A stretch of DNA of 10,246 nt from Synergistales bacterium (GTDB taxonomy: Bacteria; Synergistota; Synergistia; Synergistales; 79-D21): positions 349,084 to 359,329 of the forward strand of contig JADLKH010000005.1 of NCBI GenBank assembly GCA_015657435.1. Direction: 5' to 3'. Position numbers and translations under genes: made by a program. Below are positions 5,011 to 10,246 of this stretch, in pieces (position 1 is the stretch's first letter; each line of letters opens with the position of its first letter). The notes under the pieces were generated by a model. The model had not been told where the DNA came from, searched no databases, and saw only the letters and a list, made by a program, of their open reading frames with translations.

Positions 5011-6050
5011 ACCATGAACCGAACCGCATCATCGAACCTCCGCGACTTGCCGGGGAAACCGACAGCCTTTCCCTGAGACCACAGAGACTCAATGACTTCA
5101 TCGGGCAGAAATCCTTGAGGGAAAAACTTCGGATTTATATTGGAGCCGCCCGGATGAGAAACGAGCCTCTTGATCACCTCCTCTTCTTCGGCCCTCCAGG
5201 ATTGGGGAAAACCACTCTCGCGGGAATCATCGCGAACGAGATGTCGGGAAACCTGAAGGTTACCACCGGCCCGGCCCTCGAAAGAGCCGGCGACCTGGCG
5301 GCGCTTTTGTCCAACCTTCAGGCCGGCGACGTCCTGTTCATCGACGAGATTCACCGCCTTTCTCCCAATGTCGAGGAAATCCTTTACCCGTCTATGGAGG
5401 ATTACTCACTGGACATTGTTGTGGGGAAGGGACCTTTCGCCCGAAGCATTCGCCTCACCCTTCCGCCCTTCACGCTGATCGGTGCGACGACGCGACTGGG
5501 CTTGCTCACCTCTCCCCTGAGGGCGCGTTTCGGCATCGTGGAGGCGCTGGATCTCTACGACGCAGAGGAACTTTCCGAGATCGTCCGACGCGGAGCCTGC
5601 GTGATGAAGATCGAGGTTCACCCTTCCGCGGCAATGGAAATCGCCCTGCGTTCCAGGGGAACTCCTCGAGTGGCAATACGCCTGCTGAAGCGAGTGCGGG
5701 ACGTTGCCGCGGTCGGCAATCACCCCCTGATCGACGCCCCGCTCGCGAGAAGTGCCCTCGAAATGCTTTCCATCGACCATTCGGGGTTGGACGAGGGAGA
5801 CAGGAAACTGCTCAGGGCCCTGATCGAGCTTTTCTCAGGCGGTCCCGTCGGGCTGGCGACCCTGGCTGCCGCGCTGAACGAAGAGCAGCAGACCGTGGAG
5901 GATATCTATGAACCTTTCCTGATCCGCAAGGGGCTGATCGAGCGGACTCCGCGGGGCAGACGGGCTACTCCGGCCGCTTTCGAGTACCTCGGGCTATCCG
6001 CTCCGATGGGCTATACCCGGCAGATGAGCCTTCTAGAGGAAATCGAATGA
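5007..6050 (+). CDS. ruvB: Holliday junction branch migration DNA helicase RuvB
   Basis: AAA+ ATPase motor that pulls DNA through the RuvA-junction complex. It is 347 residues, the usual length. Walker A is GPPGLGKTT at 62-70, Walker B FIDEIH at 111-116, sensor 1 GATTR at 159-163, the likely arginine finger Arg174 in LRARFG, and sensor 2 RGTPRVA at 217-223. The C-terminal winged-helix domain spans about 255-335. All catalytic motifs are intact. AGGGGTGA at 4993-5000 lies 6 bases before the ATG, which overlaps the ruvA stop by 4 bases. The gene ends in another ATGA overlap with the next gene. Confidence 0.98.
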
Positions 6051-6277
6051 ACCTGACCTCTTTCGGCAAGTTCCTTGTTTTTTCCGGAATTCTCCTGACT
6101 CTTCTTGGAGGGCTCCTGCTGTTGGCGGCCAAAGCGGGCATTCCGCTCGGGAGATTGCCGGGGGACTTCTCTTTTCGGGGAAAGCATTTCTTTCTTTTTG
6201 CACCGATCGGAACCATGATCCTCGTCAGCCTCGTGCTGACAATCCTAGTGAACCTGTTCCTGAGGTGGTCGAAGTGA
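6047..6277 (+). CDS. DUF2905 small membrane protein
   Basis: A 76-residue protein with two predicted membrane helices (about 5-28 and 48-73) joined by a short loop that carries the family signature GRLPGDF at 35-41. This matches the DUF2905 family, whose function is unknown. AGAGGA at 6035-6040 lies 6 bases before the ATG, and the start overlaps the ruvB stop by 4 bases; its own stop overlaps the GTG of the next gene by 4. The embedding between a DNA helicase and a secreted cell-wall protein does not itself show a function, but as a membrane protein a link to the SpoIID-like neighbour is more natural than one to RuvB. That link is inference. Confidence 0.88.
6262..6268 (+). promoter_or_regulatory. 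Ribosome-binding site deciding the GTG start of the SpoIID-like gene
   Basis: GAGGTGG lies 5 bases before GTG at 6274. An in-frame GTG at 6265 falls inside this site and so cannot use it, which makes 6274 the likely start. Confidence 0.75.
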
Positions 6278-8784: not shown

Positions 8785-8813
8785 TCAACAAAATGTCAGC
8801 GTTGGGGTATATT
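8785..8813 (+). promoter_or_regulatory. Candidate sigma70-type promoter of the AmmeMemoRadiSam genes
   Basis: TCAACA (8785-8790, 4 of 6 matches to TTGACA), a 17-base spacer and TATATT (8808-8813, 5 of 6 matches to TATAAT) lie in the 80-base gap after queA. A start near 8820 would leave a short leader that holds the ribosome-binding site at 8825-8831. Optimal spacing and placement support it, but it is only a motif match. Confidence 0.5.
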
Positions 8814-8838: not shown

Positions 8839-10185
8839 ATGTGGCTTTGGGGTTGTTTGGCTCCACATCCGCCCATCATCGTTCCGGCCGTCGGCCGGGG
8901 AAGGGAACGGGAAGCTTCCGAAACGATCCGCGGAATGGACGCCCTGGCCGAAAAAGCCAGGACAAACCGGCCGGACGTCCTGCTTGTGCTGAGTCCCCAC
9001 GCACCCTTCGGAGACGGCCTAATGTTCGTCGATGCGGGAACGTTCGAGGGAGACCTCCAAAAATTCGGGATCGGCGGAACTCTTTTTGAAGCTCCCGGAG
9101 ACCGCGAGGCTTTTCGGGCATTGTCCGGTTTTCTTTCCACCTCGATTCCAATGCGCAAGTGGACAACGGAAAGCTTTCAGCTCGATCATGCCTCGGTTGT
9201 CCCCTTAAGCTGGTTCTCCGGCGCCTGGGGGCAATTACCGCCACTTGTCCTGGCCAACCCGATCGGTCTTGACGTGCACACCGCCTACCTTCTCGGAAGA
9301 ATGCTTTCGGACTTCAAGGACTCCCGCAGGTGGGCCTTACTGGCCAGCGGAGACCTTTCCCACCGGGTAACCCCGGACGCTCCGGCCGGTTTTCATCCGG
9401 ACGGCAGACGTTTCGACGCTTTTGTCATGGATGCCTTGACCCAAAGCAATCCGAAAGCACTGCTCGATCTCGAACCAGCCTTCGTCGACAGGGCAGGGGA
9501 ATGCGGGCTGCGATCGGTCCTCGCTCTCCTCGGGTTGGCGGGAAGCGACAGGATCGAAGTGCTGTCCTACGAAGCCCCTTTCGGGGTCGGATACGGGACC
9601 GCCTACTGGAAAGGCGGAGAAGAAGCGACTCTCGACTCTCCTGGAACCGATCTGACCGGCCTCGCCCGCGAATCCATCAGACACTTCCTCGAAACCGGCG
9701 GAGCGATCCCCCTGGAGCGGGCAAGGGACCTTTACCCTGAAACCTTCCTCTGGAAAGAAAAGAAGGCCTGCTTTGTTTCCCTCAAAAACCGCTTTGACGG
9801 TTCTCTACGAGGATGCATCGGCACTCTCGAACCGACGTGTTCCTGCCTGGGGGAGGAAATCATCCGGAACGCAATTTCCAGCGCCACGAGGGATCCCCGT
9901 TTCGACCCCCTCAGCCGGAGGGAATTGGACAACATCACGGTCTCGGTCGATGTGCTCGGTTCTCCCGAGAAGATTCCGGGGCCTCAGTGCCTTGACCCGA
10001 AACGCTACGGAATCATCGTTGAAAAGGGAAACCGGAGGGGGGTCCTCCTGCCGGACCTCGAGGGAGTCGACACCGTTGAGGAACAAATGTTCATCGCCTC
10101 AAGAAAGGCGGGATTCGCCGGCCCGGAGGGGGTCGGCCTTTGGCGATTCACGGTGGACAGGTATCGGGAGAGCGAAGATAAATGA
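8839..10185 (+). CDS. LigB/Memo-like domain fused to AMMECR1 domain (AmmeMemoRadiSam system protein A)
   Basis: A 448-residue two-domain protein. Residues 1 to about 262 belong to the class III extradiol dioxygenase LigB / Memo superfamily: His10 in LAPHPP, His54 in SPHAPF, Asp116-His117 in LDHASVVPL, GDLSH at 171-175 and ECG at 221-223. His10, His54 and Glu221 or Cys222 are the likely metal ligands; human MEMO1 uses two His and one Cys at the matching places. Residues about 272-440 are the AMMECR1 domain, with its hallmark LRGCIGTL at 323-330 and ATRDPRFDPLSRREL from 349. Proteins of this family occur beside Memo and a radical SAM enzyme in many bacteria and archaea, but the reaction is not established. 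ATG 8839 is chosen from its ribosome-binding site. Its stop overlaps the next start by 4 bases. No signal peptide, so cytosolic. Family call firm; function unknown. Confidence 0.93.
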   Translation: MWLWGCLAPHPPIIVPAVGRGREREASETIRGMDALAEKARTNRPDVLLVLSPHAPFGDGLMFVDAGTFEGDLQKFGIGGTLFEAPGDREAFRALSGFLSTSIPMRKWTTESFQLDHASVVPLSWFSGAWGQLPPLVLANPIGLDVHTAYLLGRMLSDFKDSRRWALLASGDLSHRVTPDAPAGFHPDGRRFDAFVMDALTQSNPKALLDLEPAFVDRAGECGLRSVLALLGLAGSDRIEVLSYEAPFGVGYGTAYWKGGEEATLDSPGTDLTGLARESIRHFLETGGAIPLERARDLYPETFLWKEKKACFVSLKNRFDGSLRGCIGTLEPTCSCLGEEIIRNAISSATRDPRFDPLSRRELDNITVSVDVLGSPEKIPGPQCLDPKRYGIIVEKGNRRGVLLPDLEGVDTVEEQMFIASRKAGFAGPEGVGLWRFTVDRYRESEDK

Positions 10186-10246
10186 ATCCTTCAGTAAGCG
10201 GGACCAAACAGGCTCGCTGGTGGCATGGGGAAAACGGGGCGTTCGT
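10182..10246 (+). CDS. Start of probable AmmeMemoRadiSam radical SAM enzyme (partial)
   Basis: Only 21 codons are visible (MNPSVSGTKQARWWHGENGA and on). The ATG overlaps the preceding stop by 4 bases, and GGGAGAG at 10166-10172 lies 9 bases before it. The ARWW...G-F pattern resembles the segment of AmmeMemoRadiSam radical SAM proteins that precedes their LCPHxC-type iron-sulfur region, and the upstream partner gene makes this the expected neighbour. The cluster cysteines lie beyond the window, so the identity rests mainly on context. Confidence 0.6.
   Translation, partial: MNPSVSGTKQARWWHGENGAF

Follow-up and report, generated by a model that had tools for sequence, protein, structure and literature searches.

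A predicted AmmeMemoRadiSam cassette from a Synergistales bacterium, with a probable Memo-like metal site in its fused LigB-type domain

We analysed a stretch of 10,246 nucleotides from a Synergistales bacterium (assembly GCA_015657435.1, contig JADLKH010000005.1, positions 349,084 to 359,329), referred to below as the window. Near its end lies a gene for a fusion of a LigB-type domain with an AMMECR1 domain, overlapped by the start of a gene for a radical S-adenosylmethionine (SAM) enzyme. Judged from their sequences, these two genes almost certainly form a complete AmmeMemoRadiSam cassette, in which the LigB-type domain fills the Memo slot. This domain scores as Pfam LigB and very probably carries a Memo-like metal site made up of His10, His54 and Cys222. 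The cassette is a member of a named, catalogued family and not a new system.

The fusion gene begins with an ATG at 8839, preceded by a ribosome-binding-like stretch, AGAAGGGGG. Its product matched LigB (PF02900, residues 7-252, 89.3 bits against a cut-off of 26.3), AMMECR1 (PF01871, residues 275-440, 140.2 bits against 25) and the NCBIfam model for AmmeMemoRadiSam protein A (TIGR04335, 120.8 bits against 99), and its first domain has the class III extradiol dioxygenase (LigB) fold. A public Synergistales protein that is 97% identical to it is labelled "AmmeMemoRadiSam system protein A." These matches bore out the original prediction, made from the letters of the window, that the gene encodes a LigB/Memo-AMMECR1 fusion; His10, His54, Glu221, Cys222 and the LRGCIGTL motif were found where that prediction had put them, as was the four-base ATGA overlap with the following gene. 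The prediction had also taken the overlapping gene, from its start alone, for a radical SAM partner. In the longer stretch L002, which is numbered as the window, the frame stayed open past the end of the window at 10246, for 338 residues in all, giving a complete gene whose product scored 286.5 bits against TIGR04337 (cut-off, 220) and has its CX3CX2C motif at residues 90-97. The bacterium's own assembly, which is 85.6% complete, contains one AMMECR1, one LigB domain and one radical SAM gene above the TIGR04337 cut-off. A separate Memo gene, the search for which had been proposed, was not found there with PF01875, so the fused domain is itself not filed as a member of that family. In the three same-genus genomes examined (L081, L086 and L089), the fusion gene, the radical SAM gene and hutH follow one another in that order (3/3), and the lost or broken partner that had been named as grounds for abandoning the prediction was not seen.

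The original prediction had proposed Glu221 and Cys222 together as metal-binding residues. Among 77 aligned Synergistota sequences (gaps omitted from the counts), His10 (75/75), His54 (76/76), Asp172 (77/77), His175 (77/77) and Cys222 (76/76) were invariant, and Glu221 was replaced by Gln or His at 7 of 76 loci. At loci with titles other than Synergistaceae, the LigB-type and Memo domains had Cys at position 222 in 52/52 cases, His10 in 49/49 and His54 in 48/49. The sequence V250-G251-Y252 was likewise invariant (74/74 and 54/54), its Gly also being present in 11/11 canonical Memo proteins; human MEMO1 reads VSYA here, with Ser in place of the Gly.

We then aligned profiles of the LigB-type domain and canonical Memo, the latter built from 11 proteins taken from 20 loci, the other nine of which had no clean Memo frame. 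The alignment (probability, 98.5; E value, 1.3e-14) set the ECG of the LigB-type domain opposite the MCG of Memo, and Memo MCG aligned with TICG of human MEMO1, that is, Cys222 with Cys244. As described in passages of PMC11081632, the iron ligands of MEMO1 are Cys244, His49 and His81, a C244S variant binds no iron, and LigB, DesB and aminophenol dioxygenase have Glu at the position of MEMO1 Cys244. By alignment, the two-His-one-carboxylate iron site of the LigB class is absent from our domain, since Cys222 stands at the third-ligand position. Because conservation and alignment both single out Cys222, the third ligand is probably this residue and not its neighbour Glu221, and only the cysteine of the proposed pair is retained.

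As a control, we took nine LigB-family genes that do not lie near AMMECR1; seven came from Synergistota, and two were from other phyla. Six had Asp at this position, three had Glu and none had Cys; in this type of LigB an adjacent His may be the true third ligand, and the control bears on the absence of Cys and not on ligand identity. A genome with LigB and without AMMECR1 (G080) also had the acidic, DODA-like type. In three genomes whose LigB gene is apart from AMMECR1 (G063, G096 and G114; a short LigB match in G116 was not included), Cys222 and VGY were present in 3/3. The Cys222 signature therefore tracks membership in the system and not position. A fourth gene read with these three, at L232, was not counted: it was misaligned, with column 222 falling on a different Cys, and it is near-identical to the DODA-like L221-L223, which have [SA]PDHF at that position.

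The tight coupling claimed for the parts was borne out in a single draw of 120 Synergistota genomes, which we searched for each of them. AMMECR1 was found in 80 of the 120, and in 80/80 of these genomes the radical SAM enzyme was matched with a score no lower than 120 bits. LigB was recognized by Pfam in 79 of the 80, and in the last (G004) a fused LigB domain was read at L104. None of the three parts was found in 35/120. The radical SAM gene lay directly 3' of AMMECR1 at 73 of 81 Synergistota loci, with a gap of at most 30 bases at 69 of them, and the exact four-base overlap recurred in 29 of the 73 cassettes measured, some of the larger overlaps arising because the first start codon was taken. 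The LigB domain was fused at 51 of the 81 loci and encoded by a separate gene at 26, one of which (L118) resembles a fusion with a frame change; it was not found in the stretch at three AMMECR1 loci, and L119 has no AMMECR1. Cys326, within the LRGCIGTL motif, was invariant in 79/79 AMMECR1 sequences. Some Synergistota have an extra, unlinked Memo-like protein (L036-L039 and other PF01875 matches); the one at L037, which has an apparent signal-like start and no MCG motif, may belong to a different Memo branch.

The radical SAM enzyme occurs in two forms in Synergistota. Among 75 closed genes from loci L040-L119, 44 encode a long form whose C-terminal part has two CxxC motifs, and 31 encode a short form that has no such pair. 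The short forms were all situated away from queA and hutH (31/31), and queA accompanied the long form in 37/44 cases. Two apparent radical SAM fusions were discarded: a 718-amino-acid open frame in G044 proved to hold a gene of 339 amino acids, and a 733-amino-acid frame in G026, which reaches upstream across the fusion gene, is probably an artefact.

To look beyond the phylum, we took the best 80 loci from a scan of genome contigs with an AMMECR1 alignment. The titles of these best 80 include Nitrospirae, Chloroflexi, clostridial and other Bacillota, Atribacteria and Desulfovibrio, and four are Synergistaceae. A radical SAM gene lay on the same strand within 6 kb at 53 of the best 80 loci. 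The LigB-type domain was fused at 40, a separate neighbour at 15 and not recognized nearby at 25; L166, counted as fused, and L198, counted as not recognized, are canonical Memo-AMMECR1 fusions. We searched the whole genomes of 38 members of this set, including all 27 with no radical SAM gene nearby, and found a radical SAM match above the cut-off in 33 and one more at 217.8 bits; among the 27, 22 had one above the cut-off elsewhere in the genome and one had the match at 217.8 bits. Memo was found in 23 of the 38 genomes and LigB in 19, some of the latter being the Memo gene itself, and on the strength of these searches the LigB-type domain and canonical Memo appear to occupy one and the same place in the system. 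No other gene family had a fixed place beside AMMECR1 across phyla in the best 80 loci.

Trees of AMMECR1 and the radical SAM enzyme from 121 loci agreed with each other (distance correlation r, 0.76; largest of 999 permutations, 0.10). Because related genomes share history anyway, this agreement speaks to common descent of the pair and not to protein contact. Of the 31 short-form Synergistota loci, 16 nest within the long-form Synergistota clade, and they are the identical 16 in both trees. The only outside member of that clade, for the AMMECR1 and radical SAM genes alike, is L122, a locus from a metagenome-assembled genome titled Desulfovibrio, which represents either genes acquired from Synergistota or a contig assigned to the wrong bin. 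Among the other 15 short loci, 14 were nearest in both trees to non-Synergistota records, nearly all with clostridial titles, and we read these 14 cassettes as sets that were probably transferred between phyla as a unit, in this case into Synergistota.

It is likely that the parts of the cassette belong to one shared pathway or complex. The original prediction had gone further and had them act in sequence on one substrate, which the genome data do not single out: close association and shared history are as compatible with a complex, or with a maturase acting on its target, as with a single pathway. The mechanism that we favour is as follows. In a cell that is probably anaerobic, the radical SAM enzyme would cleave SAM and activate an unreactive C-H bond. 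The substrate would be a common cell constituent, an economical guess given that no other partner is found at a fixed place across phyla. The product would be handed to the fusion protein, where a Cys-ligated metal, probably Fe2+, and AMMECR1 Cys326 as nucleophile would finish an O2-independent rearrangement, cleavage or transfer. We put forward this statement as a whole, cassette identity and mechanism together, tentatively, and the order of reaction, with radical activation before metal/cysteine chemistry, is more doubtful still.

Several observations weigh against this mechanism. Animals keep AMMECR1 and MEMO1 but are not known to have the radical SAM enzyme, which is therefore dispensable in some settings. 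Four of the 38 wider genomes had no radical SAM match above 47 bits, and 3/38 had no Memo or LigB match; these are mostly drafts, and some may reflect true losses. In Synergistota, the TIGR04337 cut-off (220) was reached in 62 of the 120 genomes, the remaining counted matches scoring 121-218 bits, and in four genomes the radical SAM enzyme was matched but AMMECR1 was not, two of the four matches lying at contig starts. Finally, an AlphaFold2 model of the fusion had a mean predicted local distance difference test (pLDDT) score of 94.3, with values below 50 in the linker (residues 262-269), and a predicted template modelling (pTM) score of 0.64. The mutual placement of the two domains is thus uncertain, and so is a shared active site.

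It is rather unlikely that the cassette is instead a metal-handling module, or one for iron or iron-sulfur (Fe-S) homeostasis, in which the Memo-type domain would be a carrier of iron (or copper) and not a catalyst. Passages of PMC11081632 report that MEMO1 binds iron, interacts genetically with iron genes and has no dioxygenase activity on the substrates tried, all of which would suit a carrier. So would an NRAMP-like transporter gene near AMMECR1 in 7 of the best 80 wider loci. However, no metal transporter or Fe-S assembly gene was recognized among those recurring clusters of the 81 Synergistota neighbourhoods that were annotated, although a NikR-type regulator makes up one of the clusters, at 8 loci. 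The invariance of the AMMECR1 Cys and the joining of two domains in one protein suggest an enzyme, and a carrier has no need of a dedicated radical SAM enzyme.

Also unlikely is the idea that the radical SAM enzyme matures or activates a protein, for instance by installing a glycyl radical or altering a side chain; the simplest candidate is the fusion, which would then be alone in acting on the substrate. The enzyme does have the core fold of the pyruvate formate-lyase activating enzyme together with CX3CX2C, but a related fold does not fix the type of substrate. In the fusion, Gly251 lies just before a confident strand (residues 252-258; block pLDDT, 94-96) and in no obvious exposed loop. VGY is moreover kept at L138, L165 and L178, in draft genomes with no radical SAM gene above 47 bits.

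The Pfam label suggests an O2-dependent extradiol ring-cleaving dioxygenase with accessory parts, which we consider very improbable. The third-ligand position holds Cys in all of the system domains counted above and Asp or Glu in the nine relatives outside the system, the obligate partner of the fusion belongs to an oxygen-sensitive enzyme class, and the hosts listed come largely from anaerobic groups. We give even less credence to the possibility that the fusion is itself modified by the radical SAM enzyme to become a minimal radical or modified metalloenzyme, with the radical at V250-G251-Y252 or Cys326. The Cys-ligated metal and Cys326 would then do the catalysis, and loss of the Gly would be expected in lineages that no longer have the radical SAM partner, as with the Ser of human MEMO1. 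The activase-like fold of the radical SAM enzyme and the invariance of V250-G251-Y252 speak for this possibility; the three loci that keep VGY and the position of Gly251 beside a well-ordered strand speak against it.

Least credible is a helper role in making queuosine, for which queA lies upstream, or in degrading histidine, for which hutH lies downstream: queA lies one or two genes upstream at 37/81 Synergistota loci, hutH lies just downstream at 29/81, and hutH and AMMECR1 occur together in 67/120 genomes and are both absent from 28/120, but queA is present as well at 27 of the 29 hutH loci (the two exceptions reflect a contig end, at L103, and dropped genes, at L088), all 31 short-type cassettes have neither gene, hutH has a strong promoter-like site of its own, and hutH occurs without AMMECR1 in 12/120 genomes and AMMECR1 without hutH in 13/120. 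Nor did queA, hutH, spoIID or nadE find a match at an E value of 1e-10 among the open reading frames picked in the best 80 wider loci, and for this reason we did not read function from the neighbours. A functional tie to queA or hutH was rejected as shared Synergistota gene order. The features of the cassette are collected in Table 1.

Table 1. Coordinates of the cassette and its signals in the window
Feature	Position	Strand	Remarks
LigB-type/AMMECR1 fusion gene (AmmeMemoRadiSam protein A; Memo slot fused)	8839..10185	+	448 aa
LigB-type domain, residues 1-261	8839..9621	+	Memo-like His10, His54, Asp172, His175, Cys222, V250-G251-Y252
AMMECR1 domain, residues 268-448	9640..10182	+	LRGCIGTL at residues 323-330, including Cys326
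ATGA shared by the stop codon of the fusion gene and the start codon of the radical SAM gene	10182..10185	+	read in the sequence
Radical SAM gene, start	10182..10246	+	runs beyond the window to 11198; TIGR04337
Promoter-like site TCAACA-17-TATATT	8785..8813	+	9/12 matches; weak

The promoter that had been predicted ahead of the fusion gene has a matching site (Table 1), but three promoter-like sites were found in 8600-11300 where shuffled sequences gave 0.7 (standard deviation, 0.9), and it is only suggestive. A stronger site, GTGACA-17-TATAAT (11/12 matches), lies at 11092-11120 of L002, within the 3' end of the radical SAM gene and ahead of hutH, and suggests that hutH is transcribed on its own.

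Upstream in the window are argF, nikR, a nitrilase-like gene, nadE and yebC, followed by three genes that we take to be ruvC-ruvA-ruvB and then by genes for a small membrane protein, a SpoIID-like protein and QueA. Downstream of the cassette are hutH, a branched-chain amino-acid-type ATP-binding cassette (ABC) transporter with its binding protein, and hutU. This queA/hutH gene island is common to many Synergistota. The membrane protein, encoded at 6047-6277 (+) between ruvB and the spoIID-like gene, is conserved and has 76 amino acids, and its family recurs at 19/81 Synergistota loci. The gene for the NikR-type nickel regulator (1026-1433, -) runs opposite to the argF and nitrilase genes, and a NikR-type look-alike family sits at the far edge of the island at 8/81 Synergistota loci. 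No Rfam family exceeded its gathering score in the window, and viral contigs gave no match to the exact patterns searched.

In the best 80 wider loci, strong BLAST matches to ruvB were confined to four Selenomonadales-titled loci, three genes downstream. A hypE-like gene was present in four Atribacterota-titled loci and an fmt-like gene in six loci; loosely placed ABC ATPases were seen in 15, and a polyprenyl-synthase-like gene preceded AMMECR1 in 11 of the best 80 in all. Eight loci, seven of them Nitrospirae-titled (L121, L124, L130, L132, L142, L155, L182 and L190), have AMMECR1 with no LigB or radical SAM gene nearby. There, mtnA-like and polyprenyl-synthase-like genes precede AMMECR1, a possible clue to the substrate at those loci, and most of the eight also have NRAMP-like and MgtE-like genes. 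As a pointer to the substrate of the cassette, genomic context in other phyla was rejected, since it showed local patterns only.

AMMECR1 and MEMO1 are ancient proteins with links to human disease and cancer, and to our knowledge there is no agreed reaction for either. A compact, fused version with a dedicated radical SAM partner, in a bacterium that is probably anaerobic, would be a convenient system in which to find it. With Cys standing in for a carboxylate, the bacterial "LigB" fusion is directly tied to the iron site of MEMO1, and results should therefore carry over. The label of LigB dioxygenase on the first domain of these fusion proteins is probably misleading, and the predicted assignment of Cys222 is a useful correction of it; by itself, this assignment does not reveal the chemistry. 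A 2019 treatment of the superfamily by Burroughs reportedly links Memo to nucleotide-base and isoprenoid modification. The original prediction had presented the cassette as a candidate for undescribed biochemistry. As to novelty this went too far, the system being already named and the fusion labelled in public records; as to chemistry, no reaction was assigned to AmmeMemoRadiSam in the titles and abstract openings listed from the open-licence literature. The name itself appears in a proteomics table (PMC12235711).

Among known systems, the cassette is most readily compared with AmmeMemoRadiSam as catalogued. It is alike in that its proteins score above the cut-offs of both TIGR04335 and TIGR04337 and in that close homologues bear the name publicly; it differs in that the Memo part is a fused, PF02900-scoring domain and not a separate PF01875 gene. 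In other Synergistota, however, the fused domains of G005, G009, G018 and G081 do pass PF01875, weakly (four domains, 31-38 bits against 27). Canonical Memo, including human MEMO1, has about 13% identity to our domain over the aligned part; it has an N-terminal extension of its own, and fusions of it to AMMECR1 are confined to certain records, Chloroflexota among them. In comparison with TK2203 (5HEE), LigAB, DesB and DODA/YgiD, our domain has Cys222 where the nine outside relatives have Asp or Glu, and, unlike TK2203 and the class III extradiol dioxygenases, it has AMMECR1 and radical SAM partners. For the second domain the comparison is with PH0010, MM0484, ST0229 and human AMMECR1; in our protein, AMMECR1 follows a metal domain in one chain, and its gene is coupled to that of a radical SAM enzyme. 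The radical SAM protein of this cassette fell short of the cut-offs of the activase families (the best, TIGR02493, gave 54.4 against 231.75 bits), and no glycyl radical enzyme gene was recognized next to its gene, no search for a glycyl-radical motif having been made. Compared with the pyruvate formate-lyase activating enzyme, it has additional four-Cys segments at both its N terminus and its C terminus.
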